Shown here: positions 12,619 through 20,234 of the stretch, piece by piece
Position numbering within the stretch: the first letter of the stretch is position 1
How the letters are laid out: each line of letters begins with the position of its first letter
Source: Halalkaliarchaeum desulfuricum
Lineage (GTDB): Archaea > Halobacteriota > Halobacteria > Halobacteriales > Haloferacaceae
Direction of reading: 5' to 3'
Assembly: GCF_002952775.1 (NCBI RefSeq)
Contig: NZ_CP025066.1
Span: 1,488,001 to 1,552,000, forward strand
Length of the DNA: 64,000 nucleotides
Translations under genes and position numbers: made by a program
The notes under the pieces: generated by a model
The model's input: the letters and a program-made list of their open reading frames with translations, nothing else
Databases searched by the model: none
What the model was told of the DNA's origin: nothing

Positions 12619-13407
12619 ATGGAACCAGCAAGCGACGAGGTGCAGATCGACCACGTGACGATCGCCGGCTCGGATCTCGACCGACTCGAGGCGGCATTCG
12701 AGAGCGTCGGTATCGATCCCGACTACGGCGGCTCCCACGACGAGATGCCGACACACATGTCCATCATCGGGTTCGAGGACACCACGTACATCGAGCTCAT
12801 CGCGAAAGACGAGGTCGGGACCGCGCCCCTCTGGAACGACGCGATGGAGGGGGACGTCGGCCCGTGTGCGTGGGCCGTCAGAACGAGTGATATCGATCGG
12901 GACGTCTCTCGGCTCCAGGCGACTGGACTGCAGGTCGACGGCCCGCACGACTACAGCCGCGAGCGTCCCGACGGGAAGATCAGCCGGTGGCAGCTCGCGT
13001 TTCCCGGCGAGGGGGAGCCCGGATCGGTGTTGCCGTTCCTGATCGAGGACGAAACCCCCCTCGAGCGACGCGTGCAGCCGACACCCTCCGCCGAGGCGGC
13101 GGGATTCGGCGGGATCGACAGCGTGGTGATCGCCGTTTCGGACCTCGAGACGTCGGTGTCGACGTTCGAGACGGCGTTCGAAGGGGTCGATCCCACCCAC
13201 CGCTCCGTGTCGACAGGGCCGTTCGCGGGGTCCACGGCGACGTTTTCGGAGCTCCCCGTCTCTCTCGTGGAGCCGGGTGCCGGCAGTGCGCTGTCGGAGC
13301 GTCTCGACACCATCGGTGACAGCCCGTGTGCGTTCGTGCTCGAAGCGTCGTCACCCGAAACGGTGCGGGAACACGTGGGGGCGCTCCAAACAAAACCTTG
13401 CGACTGA
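12619..13407 (+). CDS. VOC-superfamily (glyoxalase_3-like) protein
   Basis: The 262-residue protein has a beta-alpha-beta-beta-beta VOC module at residues 8-135 (VQIDHVTIAGSDLDRLEAAF, GFEDTTYIELIA) and a second, more divergent module at about 155-255 (GGIDSVVIAVSDLETSVSTF). Conserved His12 and Glu at about 58 are candidate metal ligands. Proteins of this type are annotated as glyoxalase-like and have no common substrate. GGAG lies 6 bp before the ATG at 12619. It stands alone between the decayed hicBA pair and a UPF0175/PIN pair. Confidence 0.75.
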   Translation: MEPASDEVQIDHVTIAGSDLDRLEAAFESVGIDPDYGGSHDEMPTHMSIIGFEDTTYIELIAKDEVGTAPLWNDAMEGDVGPCAWAVRTSDIDRDVSRLQATGLQVDGPHDYSRERPDGKISRWQLAFPGEGEPGSVLPFLIEDETPLERRVQPTPSAEAAGFGGIDSVVIAVSDLETSVSTFETAFEGVDPTHRSVSTGPFAGSTATFSELPVSLVEPGAGSALSERLDTIGDSPCAFVLEASSPETVREHVGALQTKPCD

Positions 13408-13506
13408 ACGCGTGTATTGCGACAACCCGGCAGAAAGCCGCACCACCTGTGTCAGTCCACCACCGACGCAGTACACGTCGGCCGGGATGCTGAAGGCCGA
13501 AGCACT

Positions 13507-13523
13507 TGTATGCAATGCATACA
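13507..13523. promoter_or_regulatory. 17-bp palindrome over the promoter of the UPF0175/PIN pair
   Basis: TGTATGCAATGCATACA is a perfect odd-centred palindrome 12 bp before the ATG at 13535, in the TATA region expected for a leaderless transcript. It is the natural operator for autoregulation by the RHH-containing antitoxin. Confidence 0.6.
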
Positions 13524-13534
13524 TTGTAAACTAT

Positions 13535-13825
13535 ATGGGAACGATCTCTGCACGCGTACCCGACGAGTTGGAGGCCGAACTCGACGCGTATCTCGAAGAC
13601 GAGAACCTCGACCGGAGTACGGCCGTTCGAAAGCTGCTCTCGGAGGGCCTCGAGGAATGGCGACGCGAGCGGGCCCTCGATCAGCTCGCGGCTGGAACCG
13701 TCACGTTCAGTAAAGCGGCCGAGCTGGCGGGGATGTCCGTCTGGGACTTCGCGCAACTCGCCAGGGAGCGTGACATCACATGGGTGGCCGACGACCACGT
13801 CGACGCGGATCTCGAGGCGCTGTGA
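13535..13825 (+). CDS. UPF0175-family antitoxin with ribbon-helix-helix start
   Basis: The 96-residue protein has MGTISARVPDELEAELDAYL (RHH strand and helix) with STAVRKLLSEGLEEWRRERA, then the UPF0175 segment AGTVTFSKAAELAGMSVWDF, a second HTH-like unit ending in LARERDITWV. UPF0175 proteins are typically paired with DUF3368 PIN toxins; here the PIN gene begins at the base after this stop codon. The start lies 12 bp after the 13507-13523 palindrome. It most likely neutralises the PIN protein and represses its own promoter. Confidence 0.85.
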   Translation: MGTISARVPDELEAELDAYLEDENLDRSTAVRKLLSEGLEEWRRERALDQLAAGTVTFSKAAELAGMSVWDFAQLARERDITWVADDHVDADLEAL

Positions 13826-14341
13826 ATGTGGGTCTTCGGCGCAACGCCGCTCATCTATCTCGCAACGGTCGATCGGCTCGCGCTCGTCCAGCATCTCGAG
13901 GTGTCGTGTGTGATCCCCGAACGCGTCGCCGAGGAGGTCATCGATACCGGCATCGACGAAGGGTATCCGGATGCCCGGCGCATCGAGCGCAGCGTCGAGG
14001 CCGGTCACTTCGACGTCGTGTCGGTCGAAAACTCTCCGTTGGTATCGCGTCTCCAACAGAACAACAATCTGAGTGACGCCGACGTCGCCGTCCTGGCCTG
14101 TGCCGACGCCCACGACGGTGTCGCCGTGATGGACGAGACGTACGGTCGTGACGTCGCCGCCGTCGAGGGGATCACAACCCGGGGGACGGCGTATCTCGTC
14201 TTGAAACTTGCAACGGAGGACGCGATCGACGTCGAAGAAGCACGAGCTGTGATCGATGCCATGATCGACGAGGGGTGGTACTGTGCCCCCGACGTGTACG
14301 CGCGGATCGTCCGGAAACTCGAGGGGATTTCTGACTCGTGA
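13826..14341 (+). CDS. DUF3368-type PIN-domain ribonuclease, probable toxin
   Basis: The 171-residue PIN protein opens MWVFGATPLIYLATVDRLAL. The usual first acidic residue (D in VSDTSPLI-type starts) appears as Gly5-Ala6 here, so one metal ligand may be altered. Other expected acids are present: ERVAEEVID, LSDADVAVLACADAH and AVMDETYGRDVA (near residues 88-112). It starts with no gap after the UPF0175 gene, so translation is probably coupled. It should cleave RNA if active; the missing first Asp makes activity uncertain. Confidence 0.8.
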   Translation: MWVFGATPLIYLATVDRLALVQHLEVSCVIPERVAEEVIDTGIDEGYPDARRIERSVEAGHFDVVSVENSPLVSRLQQNNNLSDADVAVLACADAHDGVAVMDETYGRDVAAVEGITTRGTAYLVLKLATEDAIDVEEARAVIDAMIDEGWYCAPDVYARIVRKLEGISDS

Positions 14342-14444: not shown

Positions 14445-14816
14445 CCTCGAAAGCCCCCGACGTCTCGGCTCCCGGGACCACGGCTGCGGTCCTCGCTCAC
14501 TTCGTTCGCTGCGGTGTGTGCGGGCGTCTCCGCGAGGGCCTTCGGCGCGAGCGGAGGCTCGGAAATCTCCGATTTCCGGCGACCCATGGATCGCCCGCAC
14601 GCCAGCGAGAGCTTCGCTCTCGCGCTGCTTGCCGGGTCCGGGTTCGCCGAGACGCCGGCCCCTTTCAATCCCACCCATGACGGCTATGCATGTCACCTCC
14701 GTCGGGTGGGACTGAAAGGGGCGAACGGCTACGCGAACCCCGGCGACGGAAGCACGCGACCGTCAGGGAGCGCGCGCACCGAGCCGCGGGAGCGTAGCCG
14801 TTCGGGGCTTTCGAGG
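14445..14816. repeat. Structured inverted-repeat element A (372 bp)
   Basis: Bounded by CCTCGAAAGCCCC (14445-14457) and its exact inverse GGGGCTTTCGAGG (14804-14816). In the middle, GCCCCTTTCAATCCCACCC (14658-14676) pairs with GGGTGGGACTGAAAGGGGC (14704-14722) across a 27-nt loop. Smaller hairpins nest inside, for example GCGAGAGC-TTC-GCTCTCGC. The left half (14445-14676) is nearly identical to the inverse of 18912-19085 in element B apart from a roughly 60-bp insertion, and parts of the right half also match. No convincing protein is encoded. A MITE-like repeat or large structured RNA are both possible. Confidence 0.75.
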
Positions 14817-15202
14817 GTGTCACAGAAGAAACGCCTGCAGCGATCGAACTGCAAACAAAAGAAAAAGGGCTGGGATCGTCGGTATTCGGCCAATTCGTCG
14901 AACTGCGTCCGGATACGACGAGGAACAAAATCCAGCTATTTCCTCGAACGGAGTCCAAATATCAGTATGGCCGTCGAATCGATTCCATAACGTCACCGAA
15001 AAGCGAGCGAGAGATGCCTACATTCGGGGGCGGGGTGAATGGGCAACAGATCGTCCACTTGTGACTGAATTACGACAACCCATCCTCGCAGGTGACAATT
15101 GCGAAAACGCCCGACGGATACCCACGCCCTGGAGACGAGTATTGCGCATCCAGACCCCCTAGTTCGAACGCGCCAGCGCTGTCGCTACCCAGCATGAAAG
15201 AA

Positions 15203-15231
15203 TGAAAAGGGGGCCGGCCCGCGAGGGCCGG
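15203..15231 (-). terminator. csg transcription terminator
   Basis: On the minus strand a CCGGCCC-TCGC-GGGCCGG hairpin is followed by CCCCCTTTTTC, a T-containing tract suited to archaeal termination, about 70-95 bp after the csg stop codon. Confidence 0.65.
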
Positions 15232-15261
15232 TAATTGGTGGTCTGAGTAGAACCGACCGGC

Positions 15262-15281
15262 GAGGTGAGAGAACTCACCTC
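15262..15281 (-). terminator. Second hairpin between csg stop and terminator
   Basis: GAGGTGAG-AGAA-CTCACCTC, a perfect 8-bp stem 18 bp after the csg stop codon. It may protect the mRNA 3' end or help termination. Confidence 0.45.
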
Positions 15282-15298
15282 ACGTCATCGTGGTCGGC

Positions 15299-18034
15299 TT
15301 ACCGGCGACGGTACGCCAGCAGGCCGGCCGCGATGAGCGCGATCAGTGCCGCGATGGCACCGAATCCGGGCGTCTCCTCAGGCGTCGGCGTCGGCGTCGG
15401 CTCCTCCGGCGTCGGAGTCGGCGTCGGCGTCGGCGTCGGCTCCTCCGTCGGCGTCGGCGTCGGCGTCGGCGTCTCCACCTCTTCGACAGTCAGCGTTGCC
15501 GTCTGACTGTCGTCGTCGGTGTAGATGCCGTGGGTGTAGTCACCGGCGTCGAGGTCGGGCGTCGCGGTGAACTCGACGGTGGTGTCCTCGTCAGCGTCGA
15601 GGGTTACCTCTTCGCTGGCGACGACGTCACCTTCGAGCTGCCATTCGACGGTCTGCGTTCCTTCCAATTCGCCAGTGTTGGTGATCGTCGCGGAGACGGT
15701 CACCGATTCACCGACGTCGATCTCGGCCGGTGCGTCGAGGTCAGACACCTCGAAGGTGGCCGGATCGGGGTCGACTGCTTCGACCACTTCACCGGATGCA
15801 GTGTATTCGAACAGCGTCTGGCGCACGCTTGCGTCGTACGTGTCACCGACGCTCTGTTCGCTGAAGTCGAACTCACCGACGAACTCGCCGTCGGCGTCGA
15901 CGACGAGATCTTCGGCGGTCTTACTGAAGCCGGGGCGGGTGTCACCGGTCGAGCGGACACGGAGGTTCAGCTCGTTACCGGGGGCGATGTTGGTGTCGCC
16001 CTCGATGAGCTGACCGTCCTCTGCGGTCACGTTGACGTTCGCTTCGAGTTCACCGTCGGCTTCGATGATTTCCAGGCCAGCTTCGACTGTCTCAGTTTCG
16101 GGCTCCTCCTCGGGGTCTTCTTCACCCGCGAGCAGGCGCTCACTGTGGACGTCGAAGCGGACGTTGTAAGCTTCCTCAGCCTCGGCACGGTCGTCGAGTT
16201 GGGTCTCAGTGTCCTCGATGTTGTAGATCAGGAACAACTGGTTGTTCTCCTCGTCGAGGAGGACGTCGACGTCATCGTGCATCTCGGTCCAGTTCAGGAC
16301 CTTCCGCTCGGCGAACGCCGGCGTACTATCCGCGGTCTGGCGGACGCGGAGCGCGAAGGTCTCGTTCTCGTCGATCTCCTCGTTCACGGCAGTGAAGTTG
16401 CCGTCCTCGGCGTCGAGCATCCCGAAGATGCCGGACGCTTCGATCTGGTGGATGGCAACGTCACTGTCAACACCAGTCTGGGATTCTGCGATGTCGTCAC
16501 GCAGCGTGACGTTTTCGTTCAGACGCTCGTCGAGTGCATCGAGCGGCTCATCCGCACTGGTGATGTCATCGCGGACATCCTCGGGTGCGGTCCAAGTGCT
16601 CACGCCCTCAGTCGAGCGCTCTTCGAGGAAGAGCGTGCCGATGTCGTCAGGGTCGTCTTCGAGGGCACTAGCGATTGCAGTCTCGTTGTAGTCGTCGTTC
16701 TCCCAGAAGTCGTAGTCGTCGTGGTCAAAGATAGCCAACGTCTCGTACGCATCTTCCGGAAGGAGGAAGCCCTCAATCGGCGTCTCGTTCACGATCGTAA
16801 CTTCTTGGTCGTCGTCAGCAGCGTAGGCGACAGACTCGTTCGGATCGTCACTTGCGGTATGCTGACCAGCGAGCCAAGTGTTGTACCGGATCGTCACTTC
16901 ACCTTCTTCCTCATGATCCTCCACGTGGAGGATAATCTCGTAGCCGTCCTCGGCCTCGTCGCCGATCTGGACGTAACCGTCCTCGGCTTCGCCGTCGAAG
17001 GTCACGGTGATCTCGGCGACGTCACCGACGTTCTGTTCGACAGTCTGGGGGTCGAAGTTCAGTTCGCCCACAGCGACCTCTTCAACAGAGATTGTGTCAG
17101 AGGTCACAGTCACGCCCGAGCGCAGGTCCGTCACTTCGACGTAGTAGTCACCTGGTTCATGCTGACCAAGGTCGTACTCGGCTTGACCTTGGCCGTCGAG
17201 CTCTTCATCGATGGTTGTAACCAGATCATCATCGTCGTCGTAGAGGTCAACCTGGAGATCGCGGTTTACCGCGTTGGAGTCGACAACACCAGTAACATTA
17301 GTGTTCTCGTCGATGTCCAGGTCGTCAGGAGTGACCTCCAATCCGAGCGCACGAAGGGTGAATGTACCATCGTCAACACTGTCTACACCTTCGATTTCGC
17401 TTATCTCGTACGTGTCCAGGCTCTGACCAGCGGAGTCGAATAGGACAACTTCGCTGCTCTCACCACTGGCACGCTCGGTATAGTCACCGTTTTCAATCGC
17501 GACAGTGAAATCGAGGTCACCGTCTTGGATGGCTATCTGAGTGCCTTGGTAGACGGTTTGGTTGTCCGAGTCCGCATCTACCGTCGCCCCAGCAAACCGG
17601 ACATCATACTCGCCGACATCTTCAATGTCGACAGTCCCGATTCGTGGGTAGAACTGGTCATCCACGTCGTCATGGGATCCGACGTCAATGAGAACCTGAC
17701 CTTCATATTCATCTATTGTCGCATTATCGGTATTATAGACTACTTCATCAAGGTCCTCCTCACCGAGATCAACGGTGAAATTCGTGTCATCAACGTCGAC
17801 ACTCTCCTCAAACGCGATTTCAATTACAGGCCCATCAATGGTGATACCATCATGATCATGAGCCTCATCGGTTCTATCGTAGTGAATCGGATCCTTCTCC
17901 AATTCAGCGTCTTCATTGATCGCCGCGGCGGTACCGGCAAGACCGGCGCCACCGATGGCGAGCATTGAGACGACCATAATCGCTGCCAGGAACACTGCGC
18001 GTCCCTTTTCGCGATATGTAGTTTCTCTTGTCAT
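15299..18034 (-). CDS. csg: S-layer glycoprotein precursor with PGF-CTERM anchor
   Basis: Forms the cell-surface lattice. The 911-residue precursor has a Sec-type signal (residues 1-38, RAVFLAAIMVVSMLAIGGAG, cleavage likely after TAAA). A very acidic beta-rich ectodomain follows with a dozen N-glycosylation sequons (NFT, NAT, NQT, NVT, NWT and others). A CARDB-like domain sits at about 765-850, then a Thr-Pro repeat (PTPTPTPTEEPTPTPTPTPT) for O-glycosylation. The tail TPGFGAIAALIALIAAGLLA with RRR is the PGF signal cut by archaeosortase ArtA before lipid attachment. Two TATA elements lie upstream (18204-18211, 18295-18300) and a terminator downstream. Elements A and B flank the gene in opposite orientation. 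Confidence 0.93.
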   Translation of the reverse strand: MTRETTYREKGRAVFLAAIMVVSMLAIGGAGLAGTAAAINEDAELEKDPIHYDRTDEAHDHDGITIDGPVIEIAFEESVDVDDTNFTVDLGEEDLDEVVYNTDNATIDEYEGQVLIDVGSHDDVDDQFYPRIGTVDIEDVGEYDVRFAGATVDADSDNQTVYQGTQIAIQDGDLDFTVAIENGDYTERASGESSEVVLFDSAGQSLDTYEISEIEGVDSVDDGTFTLRALGLEVTPDDLDIDENTNVTGVVDSNAVNRDLQVDLYDDDDDLVTTIDEELDGQGQAEYDLGQHEPGDYYVEVTDLRSGVTVTSDTISVEEVAVGELNFDPQTVEQNVGDVAEITVTFDGEAEDGYVQIGDEAEDGYEIILHVEDHEEEGEVTIRYNTWLAGQHTASDDPNESVAYAADDDQEVTIVNETPIEGFLLPEDAYETLAIFDHDDYDFWENDDYNETAIASALEDDPDDIGTLFLEERSTEGVSTWTAPEDVRDDITSADEPLDALDERLNENVTLRDDIAESQTGVDSDVAIHQIEASGIFGMLDAEDGNFTAVNEEIDENETFALRVRQTADSTPAFAERKVLNWTEMHDDVDVLLDEENNQLFLIYNIEDTETQLDDRAEAEEAYNVRFDVHSERLLAGEEDPEEEPETETVEAGLEIIEADGELEANVNVTAEDGQLIEGDTNIAPGNELNLRVRSTGDTRPGFSKTAEDLVVDADGEFVGEFDFSEQSVGDTYDASVRQTLFEYTASGEVVEAVDPDPATFEVSDLDAPAEIDVGESVTVSATITNTGELEGTQTVEWQLEGDVVASEEVTLDADEDTTVEFTATPDLDAGDYTHGIYTDDDSQTATLTVEEVETPTPTPTPTEEPTPTPTPTPTPEEPTPTPTPEETPGFGAIAALIALIAAGLLAYRRR

Positions 18035-18203
18035 GTTTTGTGTTGTTGTGTTGTACTTCCGGCGTCAGTCACTTTCTCCCGGTCTCGAACGTCCGGCCCT
18101 CTGCAACCGCCGTCGTCGTCGTCGTCACCGACTTCCGGACTCGTCCTGGGATACTCGGTACTGCCACCATGGGTAGGGGTACGGGCATAACAACCATCGC
18201 CTG

Positions 18204-18211
18204 TATTAAAT
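18204..18211 (-). promoter_or_regulatory. csg promoter candidate, proximal
   Basis: Read on the minus strand, ATTTAATA lies about 170 bp before the start codon, predicting a 5' UTR of roughly 145 nt. Confidence 0.45.
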
Positions 18212-18294
18212 GCTTTGTGGTGAGACGGCATCCGAGACAATCCGTAACACACCCGATTTCGGGCGATAGAGCGGTTCTCGGGGGTTGATAGACG

Positions 18295-18300
18295 TATAAA
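18295..18300 (-). promoter_or_regulatory. csg promoter candidate, distal
   Basis: TTTATA on the minus strand, preceded by AGTA, predicts a transcript start near 18270 and a 5' UTR of roughly 235 nt. Two spaced promoters and a long leader are plausible for a very highly expressed surface gene. Confidence 0.5.
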
Positions 18301-18681
18301 TACTTTCTGCCACCGGAGACGCGGTGTGATTGCGGTCCCGGGGCCGGCGTCGATCCGGGCGAAGTTCGGGGGCGACCGGTTCCCATCCCGGGCTTTTCGG
18401 AGGTCATTGGTGGGCGGTCGAGGGTCGACTCGTGACGGGGGTGGTCCCGATTCCGCCGTCTGACGACGGTCTGACAGCAGGGTGCTTTCGGCGGGGGTTT
18501 ATAAGGGTGTGTTGGCGGGATTCCTGGCGTTGGATCCGGGTATCGACGTATCGACGGGTTCCGACCGGGCAGTCGTGCGTGCGTGGTTATCATCTTGATT
18601 TCAGCTTCTTGATTTCAGCTGAATCCGGGGCTGTGTCGGTAGTGACTCGATCCGAGGAGACAGTTGCGTCAACAGAGAGCA
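18301..18681. other. Spacer upstream of csg; no gene, one direct repeat and one TATA-like site
   Basis: TTTATAAG at 18498-18505 could start a plus-strand transcript running into element B. CTTGATTTCAGCT occurs twice with a 14-bp period (18594-18606, 18608-18620). No coding frame with supporting signals is seen. Confidence 0.5.
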
Positions 18682-19085
18682 CCTCGAAAGCCCCGAGTCG
18701 CTGGAGTCGGGGGCCTCTCACGGCTCGCTTTGGGGTCTCACTCCGTTCGACACACCTCGCTCGCCGTTCGAGTACTCGAGGCGCTCGTTTCACTCGCGCC
18801 TCGCACTCGCTGCGCGCGCTCCCTTCGGTCGCGTGCTTACTTCAGCCGTCTTCCCCCAGCGACTCGCCCCTTTCATCCCCACCCGACCGCACTACCCGCG
18901 GAGCCTATTTGGGGTGGGACTGAAAGGGGCCGGCGTCTCGGCGAACCCGGACCCGGCAAGGAGCGCGAGAGCGAAGCTCTCGCTGGCGTGCGGGCGATCC
19001 GTGGGGTCGCCCGCACACACCGCAGGCCGAAGGCCGAGGAGCGCAGCCGTGGTCCCGGGAGCCGAGACGTCGGGGGCTTTCGAGG
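18682..19085. repeat. Structured inverted-repeat element B (404 bp)
   Basis: Same terminal 13-mers as element A (18682-18694 and 19073-19085) and the same central pair, GCCCCTTTCATCCCCACCC (18866-18884) with GGGTGGGACTGAAAGGGGC (18912-18930). Its right half is the inverse of the left half of A, so A and B are copies in opposite orientation. It contains nested hairpins such as GGCCGAAGGCC and GCGAGAGCGAAGCTCTCGC. No protein is predicted. The left half is diverged from A except around AAGCACGCGACC and GGGAGCGCGCGCA (compared after inversion). Confidence 0.75.
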
Positions 19086-19413: not shown

Positions 19414-19476
19414 GACGTCGGTGTGCGATTTGATCGAAACACCTTTAAAATACAATCGATTACATTTGGGTACAGA

Positions 19477-19896
19477 ATGCCGATACTCCTCAAAGATCAC
19501 GATCCCGAACTCAACCTCCGGCCAGGGACCACGAAATCAAACATCGTGGCGTATCTCTATCAAAATCCCGAGTGGGGGTATTCCCCGCAGGACCTCGTGG
19601 AATCCCTTGACATTCCCCGAGGGACGGCGACGACCACACTCAAACGCCTCTATGACGACGACTACATCGGAAAAACCGACGACGGGTACTACTACGCGCT
19701 GCGCGACCGCGAAGATATCCGACGATACGTCGCAAGTCTCGACCAGATACATCGAATGTTCGGCCACCACCGCGAGACGGACGCCACTCCCGAAGAACCC
19801 GAGAAACAAATCGGTGAGGGGCGTACTGACGAGGAACTCGATGCAGAACTCTCGGAGATTGAGGACGACATGGATGCGGGAAATGAGGGTAAATGA
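19477..19896 (+). CDS. MarR-like winged-helix protein, probable antitoxin of the PemK-like gene
   Basis: The 139-residue protein has an N-terminal stretch MPILLKDHDPELNLRPGTTK, then a winged helix (residues 20-80, SNIVAYLYQNPEWGYSPQDL through TATTTLKRLYDDDYIG, wing DDGYYYAL), then a helical Glu/Asp-rich tail that could wrap a toxin. The ATG at 19477 lies about 30 bp after the TATA element CTTTAAAATAC (19442-19452), supporting a leaderless start over upstream in-frame codons. Its stop overlaps the next ATG by 4 bp. A winged-helix partner for PemK/MazF is less common than AbrB or RHH partners. Confidence 0.75.
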   Translation: MPILLKDHDPELNLRPGTTKSNIVAYLYQNPEWGYSPQDLVESLDIPRGTATTTLKRLYDDDYIGKTDDGYYYALRDREDIRRYVASLDQIHRMFGHHRETDATPEEPEKQIGEGRTDEELDAELSEIEDDMDAGNEGK

Positions 19897-20234
19897 GTAA
19901 ACTTTCTGCGGGAGATGTTTGCTGGGCACAAGACCCAACTGGTGCTCATCCCCAACGACCGATTATCGTCTTGGCTCATGAGACACACCCGTTCAGTGCA
20001 ACGGATTGTACTGTGATGTGTGTCGGAACAAGCGCCGGGAAATATCAGCAAACCACGCCTGAACTCGAAAACGAGCACCTCGACGGTATCTCATTCAACG
20101 ACACGACGTCTCTGATGCCATGGGCGCTATACACGATTCCACCGGGGACGATTATGAACGGAAAGACGAAAGGTGAACTTACAGAAGGTGGACGACGACT
20201 GGTGAAAAAGTCGCTTATTTCCCTCATTCCGTGA
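19893..20234 (+). CDS. PemK/MazF-like toxin
   Basis: The 113-residue protein matches the PemK/MazF SH3-like barrel opening: LSAGDVCWAQDPTGAHPQRP followed by IIVLAHE, then ATDCTVMCVGTSA and a C-terminal helix (GGRRLVKKSLISLIP). In active MazF toxins the conserved loop after the first strand (PTxG...RP) and a later Thr/Ser line the RNA site; the first is present. It overlaps the winged-helix gene by ATGA, so the two are cotranslated. Inferred to be an endoribonuclease or to act through translation components. Confidence 0.75.
   Translation: MSKLSAGDVCWAQDPTGAHPQRPIIVLAHETHPFSATDCTVMCVGTSAGKYQQTTPELENEHLDGISFNDTTSLMPWALYTIPPGTIMNGKTKGELTEGGRRLVKKSLISLIP

Follow-up and report, generated by a model that had tools for sequence, protein, structure and literature searches.

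The S-layer-type glycoprotein gene csg of Halalkaliarchaeum desulfuricum lies between two hairpin-rich elements in opposite orientation, A and B, each of about 400 bp, and their arrangement raises the question of whether they serve to invert the gene, act as structured RNAs or belong to a mobile repeat family. The window analysed here is the whole 64,000-nucleotide stretch around them (G000:C1:1488001-1552000), within a 3.31-Mb single-contig genome. Every feature that an earlier note had claimed for A and B was found in the sequence, nested GC-rich hairpins among them, and neither element contains a convincing open reading frame (ORF). The 13-bp termini (CCTCGAAAGCCCC / GGGGCTTTCGAGG) lie at 14445-14457 and 14804-14816 in A and at 18682-18694 and 19073-19085 in B; the 19-bp inverted pair has GGGTGGGACTGAAAGGGGC at 14704 and 18912, with partners ending at 14676 (one difference) and 18884 (two differences); and the inverted block common to A and B is made of arms 14583-14676/18912-19005 (97% complementary) and 14441-14495/19035-19089 (98%). 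The two copies are thus present as described, but their anatomy as single units is not upheld, since each is composed of two units arranged tail to tail around a 27-nt linker. The features are as follows.

14445-14676, structured strand minus: unit A1 (232 nt; covariance model match at 14557-14676, minus strand, 33.2 bits), which reads 5'-GGGTGGGATTGAAAGGGGC...GGGGCTTTCGAGG-3' on the minus strand
14677-14703, no strand: A linker (27 nt), between A1 and A2
14704-14816, structured strand plus: unit A2 (113 nt; covariance model match of 104.5 bits, E 7.1e-18), with its P2 stem at 14723-14734/14792-14803
15299-18034, minus strand: S-layer-type glycoprotein gene csg (PGF-CTERM, DUF7827), bracketed by A and B and not part of either element
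18682-18884, structured strand minus: unit B1 (203 nt; 61.2 bits, E 7.4e-10)
18885-18911, no strand: B linker (27 nt), between B1 and B2
18912-19085, structured strand plus: unit B2 (174 nt; 55.3 bits, E 9e-9)
14704-14722 (plus), 14658-14676 (minus), 18866-18884 (minus) and 18912-18930 (plus): R end, conserved 5' motif GGGTGGGACTGAAAGGGGC
14804-14816 (plus), 14445-14457 (minus), 18682-18694 (minus) and 19073-19085 (plus): L end, conserved 3' motif GGGGCTTTC plus GAGG

On its structured strand a unit runs GGGTGGGACTGAAAGGGGC–hairpin–GGGGCTTTC, and reading from L to R it appears as CCTCGAAAGCCCC ... GCCCCTTTCARTCCCACCC. The covariance model recovers all four window units, every one on the expected strand, and the blocks shared by A and B gave BLAST values of 1.6e-51 and 9.7e-25 against their own genome. 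The sharing is between A1 and B2, which carry inverse blocks of 94 nt (97% identical) and 55 nt (98%) at a distance of 4.2 kb; they differ in internal length, their similarity ends at the unit ends, and the other window units differ. The genome has further single units at 3016725, 2988101 and 1775654, and degenerate ones at about 2983000, 1771100 and 1772300.

The surroundings of the two elements have peculiarities of their own. Beside A, UPF0175 and DUF3368/PIN-type genes (window 13277-14341) form a probable toxin-antitoxin pair, and the corresponding interval of G318, a genome of the same genus, holds unrelated genes. Beside B (window 19423-20234), a winged-helix (MarR-like) gene precedes an ORF of 113 aa, PemK-like on visual inspection and with no Pfam match, neither of them being found in the G318 csg region examined. 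Upstream of the S-layer gene, at 18593-18620, a perfect 14-nt direct repeat, TCTTGATTTCAGCT, occurs twice in succession.

The near-identical inverse blocks of A1 and B2 speak for a recombination switch flipping the S-layer gene, as the earlier note had envisaged. The switch is nevertheless unsupported, because G318 is collinear and has csg in the same orientation with no elements there; around its own csg it shows 80-90% identity on both sides, and the sequence between csg and the conserved neighbours differs. Among the S-layer-type loci of the relatives examined, the motif flanks only the csg of this genome and no other locus is bracketed, and the paralogue at G000:C1:1715644-1718178, 66% identical to the window csg over residues 220-911, has no flanking elements. 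The lack of the elements at the csg of G318 and of the motif at the other S-layer-type loci indicates that the bracketing is particular to this genome, and elsewhere the family adjoins unrelated genes. An inversion switch is hence highly improbable; the position next to csg looks incidental, and the bracketing is probably a by-product of local copying, as represented by A1 and B2.

A search of the same genome and of other haloarchaea, which the earlier note had proposed, placed A and B in an interspersed, haloarchaea-wide family. Of 392 genomes of the class, 174 contain the 19-mer GCCCCTTTCARTCCCACCC without mismatch, spread over 60 of 86 genera, and the reversed pattern occurs in none of the 392. 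In named genomes the motif was seen in at least 120 stretches, and among the matches listed are Haloarcula, Natrinema, Natronococcus, Halorussus, Haladaptatus, Halobaculum, Haloparvum, Halonotius and many MAGs. At up to one mismatch, copies per genome range from 0 to 87, with the highest numbers in G026 (87), G176 (83) and H. rara (75). A covariance model built from 57 units has matches in 48 of 53 sampled Halobacteria and in none of 242 other genomes of the phylum, and several genera without the exact 19-mer are rich in its members. The exact motif is absent from G014, probably Haloquadratum walsbyi, where the model gives two weak hits (38.1 and 32.9 bits). A viral or plasmid origin was rejected: the viral contigs and phages searched gave zero family matches, and haloarchaeal plasmids gave a scattered handful, almost all unannotated. 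No Rfam family matches above its gathering score, and no description of the motif strings or related topics was encountered in the open literature, to which the search was confined. The family was not found in Rfam and appears to be previously unlisted.

Since the R end served as search query, end conservation was judged on the ends outside the query. The L-end string GAAAGCCCC is exact in 168 of 194 units, a control stretch giving 1 of 194, and is 95-100% conserved per position. The units exceed 100 nt and end in GAAAG/GGGTGGGACTGAAAG. A short outer helix, GAAAG/CUUUC, closes an internal loop of GGG(G)/GGG(G), above which stand a unit-specific stem of 11-13 bp and several short helices, the internal loops of which are rich in purines. 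The left arms of this stem differ in nearly every unit (117 of 142 are distinct), and yet an average of 9.6 of 11 positions form Watson-Crick pairs, as opposed to 5.0 with shuffled partners (maximum 5.4 in 1000 shuffles). These counts refer to units kept at a stem score of at least 7, a threshold that 162 of 194 reach when the arm is their own and about 52 when it is taken from other units. For 57 non-redundant units in the R-end reading, RNAalifold yields 28 pairs, 20 of which have two-sided changes; 93.5% of the cells pair, compared with 72.6% after shuffling and 31-49% in slid controls, and cells with two-sided changes number 311 versus 104.6+-8.2 (0 of 500 shuffles). Compensatory change in the stems, the check by covariation that the earlier note had called for, is accordingly in excess of both shuffled and slid controls. 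An independent case is provided by genus g2, in which the closing pair of the outer helix (P1) has been swapped to CAAAG/CTTTG. The interior is conserved as well, its two sides reading CGAYG-AAGSACC and GGASCRCAGCGAG (also given as CGAYG-AAG-ACC / GGA-CRCA-CGAG). As judged from these substitutions, the hairpin is under structural selection, its fold being conserved while the stem sequence keeps changing. A kink-turn in the GA loops was rejected by hand, the 3-nt bulge being missing, and coding through the L end, suggested by a 3-base periodicity upstream of it, was set aside because the frames are mostly short; the periodicity was taken as repeat structure. The R-end string GTGGGACTGAAAG presumably has a likeness to the 3' portion of archaeal type I CRISPR repeats.

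Imperfect pairs reveal which strand folds. On the R-to-L strand, the stems of 134 units contain 57 G.U and 10 A.C pairs (p 4e-9), which on reading from L to R become 57 A.C and 10 G.T; over all 28 alignment pairs the asymmetry is weaker and in the same direction (43 G.U versus 22 A.C, p 0.013). In the unpaired interior of the same strand A makes up 38% and T 7%, whereas at paired positions both stand at 11%, and the mean folding energy is -62.1 kcal/mol for the R-to-L strand versus -56.5 kcal/mol for its opposite. The G.U bias, the excess of unpaired A and the more stable folding together imply that the fold is kept on one strand, 5'-GGGTGGGACTGAAAGGGGC...GGGGCTTTC-3'. The polarity of the functional strand is therefore fixed, a pattern that RNA and single-stranded DNA both fit. 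Replichore polarity was rejected, since strands are mixed and, in G176 and G384, orientation is independent of chromosome position.

The G tracts of the ends admit a different interpretation, in which the units are sites at the DNA level, with invariant tracts (GGG-N-GGG, GGGG, GGGG) that form a quadruplex-duplex hybrid or are bound by a nucleoid or recombination protein. In partner ends outside the query (the non-exact set) the G-tract columns are 84-100% conserved, and conservation at the R end is lowest (35%) for the base that separates the GGG runs, as this reading would have it; GGG-N-GGG and the two GGGG tracts, joined by the hairpin, could make up such a hybrid, and haloarchaea maintain high intracellular K+. 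A DNA-level site leaves both the selection on the long hairpin and the G.U polarity unexplained, however, and orientation in G176 and G384 is unrelated to chromosome position, which makes it very unlikely.

Units also occur in pairs elsewhere, in the manner of A and B. Motif pairs less than 200 nt apart are always tail to tail, with a gap that is nearly always 15-27 nt, and convergent R ends at this spacing were found at 33 loci, the window included. The linkers are near-palindromic, and the 15-27 nt between paired 5' ends hold no AT-rich promoter. Where a unit stands alone, remnants of a partner or a further conserved G-rich hairpin often occupy the position that the second unit would have. 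This second domain (..GCGAGGGACGA..GAGTCGGYTGGGGAGG.., preceded by GGTGGCGCGCGCTGGCG) lies on the 5' side of many single units (L313, L315, L042, L048, L091 and others), and together with the unit may constitute a larger composite RNA or element.

Approximately 80% of units are intergenic, among convergent, divergent and tandem genes without preference. The gene on the RNA 5' side has the same orientation as the unit in 58 cases and the opposite one in 56, single units being likewise unbiased, and this inconsistency led to the rejection of a cis-acting RNA element. Genes starting on the 3' side of the structured strand mostly do so 80-118 nt from the unit, as would be expected if promoters were spared. 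A common neighbour gene was likewise rejected, for the proteins encoded beside 127 members fall into 157 Pfam families of diverse housekeeping genes, none of which occurs with more than three members.

As for a mobiliser, an autonomous version with a transposase ORF between motifs was not present in any of the eight loci with distant motif pairs, and neither a transposase nor a TnpB family appears among the recurrent neighbours of the 127 members. These results bear on the notion that the units are REPIN- or PATE-like and are mobilised as single-stranded DNA by an IS200/IS605 or RAYT Y1 transposase, with GAAAG as guide and CTTTC as cleavage site. The layout of guide, hairpin and complement, the strand polarity and the inverted pairs, as in REPINs, agree with it, and both PATEs and SMRs of about 110 bp have been described in Haloquadratum (PMC3119063). 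Against it, Y1 genes do not track copy number: several genomes of high copy number (G026, G312, G232, G147, G338) lack any PF01797 (Y1_Tnp) match, G014, which does not contain the exact motif, has 10, and only 1 of 30 Y1 loci has the motif nearby. Dependence on IS200/RAYT was rejected on these grounds, and a mechanism of this type must be deemed very unlikely. Neighbours, motif-pair interiors and Y1 matches together identified no mobiliser.

Comparisons among related genomes document how the units change. When the flanks of six H. rara (Haloarcula) sites, freed of the element, served as queries against 32 genomes, several relatives proved to have an element of different content at the corresponding position. 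At L132 (versus L257), H. rara and G301 share ends and linker style within flanks that are 91-95% identical, and their hairpins are different; at other orthologous sites (L265, L253, L269) only the ends remain, or a short core without hairpins. Site L081 is a case of gain or loss, being occupied in H. rara and empty in G301, with flanks 97-99% identical, but the comparison reveals no clean target duplication and its borders are fuzzy. Within G176, core identity reaches at least 94% in nine pairs of units and at least 96.8% in seven of these, in flanks that are mostly at background level. One such pair has a core that is 100% identical, a 5' flank of 37% and a 3' flank of 95% identity, which places the break exactly at GGGTGGG. 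These comparisons show that hairpin cassettes are copied within genomes and replaced wholesale at orthologous sites while the ends persist. Tandem arrays also mark the G176 units (L328-L387), 28 of 60 being followed by tandem copies of the 3' arm (GAGCGGGCGGGGGCTTTC) and 28 of 60 preceded by tandem repeats of about 25 nt. At L044, L158, L171, L173, L179 and other loci the ends enclose no hairpin and form minimal cores (for example GAAAGCCCCCGGCCCCTTTCAGTCCCACCC), which represent either an empty target or a deletion remnant.

A unit may also be retained at one place over long distances. Between nucS and endA (named from Pfam hits among the neighbours), five species of two families (Natrinema, Haloterrigena, Haloarcula) have a unit in one orientation, with identical ends, unrelated flanks and stems that are different yet paired. 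Such retention of an invariant core at one site across families, in flanks that have diverged, favours the possibility that the units are host structured RNAs, either independent ncRNAs or parts of transcripts, which selection on the folded RNA would maintain. The strong covariation, the prevalence of G.U over A.C and of unpaired A over T on one strand, the conserved internal motifs and the second G-rich hairpin found 5' of some single units would all be in keeping with it. Set against them are the near-equal numbers of the two orientations with respect to the gene 5' of the RNA, the gap of only 15-27 nt, devoid of an AT-rich promoter, between paired 5' ends, copy numbers that go from 0 to 87 between genomes and the absence of an Rfam family, and a host RNA is, on balance, unlikely.

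The lack of gene-orientation preference, the lack of room for a promoter within pairs and the wide range of copy numbers favour instead a non-autonomous repeat. In the interpretation that we consider probable, albeit with some reserve, the family is a non-autonomous hairpin repeat of the whole class, recognised during copying in the form of its folded single strand. The family would persist as such a repeat, its single-stranded hairpin, RNA or DNA, being recognised and copied into existing or new sites by a host or transposon enzyme; alternatively, copies could spread through ectopic gene conversion, for which the conserved ends would be the anchor. The near-identity of A1 and B2 would then stem from a recent local copying event. 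The many sites at which related species share an element, the one between nucS and endA for example, speak against this reading to the extent that they also fit long vertical retention under host selection, and a repeat and a host RNA are not mutually exclusive. It is conceivable, though we would not presume it, that the family embodies a new archaeal retro- or ssDNA-element, namely a protein-less, strand-specific hairpin cassette homing class-wide into conserved intergenic palindromic cores, with invariant ends, exchanged paired stems and an optional second G-rich hairpin. The alternatives of structured RNAs or a MITE family in the earlier note came close, in that the units do form an interspersed hairpin family with covariation and a preferred strand; the parent transposon that a MITE family would imply was not found.

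The family is present in nearly every sampled haloarchaeal genome, often in dozens and in up to about 90 copies, with very clear covariation and no Rfam entry, and its description provides haloarchaeal genomics with an annotatable feature and a working covariance model. It may explain many intergenic hairpins and spurious ORFs in these genomes, and it offers a natural system for the copying and correction of hairpins in polyploid, high-salt cells. It also raises the testable question of whether the selected molecule is RNA or single-stranded DNA, and of which enzyme moves it.

Several known systems share part of this anatomy. Bacterial REP/BIME and REPIN sequences are also short, intergenic, high-copy hairpins without an ORF, arranged in inverse pairs with a short linker, but their units measure 20-40 nt, whereas the haloarchaeal units measure 110-230 nt and have a stem that differs from unit to unit. 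The present family, moreover, is class-wide in haloarchaea, has no link to Y1/RAYT and lacks the GTAG/CGTC-type tag of REPIN/RAYT systems. It is MITE-like in its terminal inverted repeats, lack of an ORF, interspersed distribution and the existence of an empty site, and departs from MITEs in having no parent transposon, no clear target duplication and an internal pairing under strong selection. The omega-RNAs of IS200/IS605 TnpB are multi-hairpin, haloarchaeal and strand-specific (PMC12558985); the family differs from them in its inverted pairs and in having no TnpB among recurrent neighbours and no Rfam hit. PATEs are transposase-free palindromic haloarchaeal repeats derived from IS605, which have no inverted terminal repeats and leave minimal remnants after loss of the core (PMC3119063). 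The family is likewise transposase-free and palindromic with minimal remnants, but it has inverted ends and inverted pairs, and neither tnpA nor tnpB was found among its neighbours. The SMRs of Haloquadratum walsbyi comprise three families without sequence similarity that target near-terminal palindromes of PATE/IS605, and one of them, SMR-A, is a palindrome-associated repeat of about 110 bp with inverted ends, no transposase, dozens of copies and an enigmatic mobilisation (PMC3119063). SMR-A and the present family, compared by description only, are alike in their length of about 110 bp, inverted ends, lack of a transposase, dozens of copies, enigmatic mobilisation and association with palindromes; G014 holds only the two weak covariance model hits. 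Although it lacks the marks of a RAYT system, and with the SMRs taken by description, the family would seem, in its mode, most like REPINs and the SMRs of Haloquadratum.
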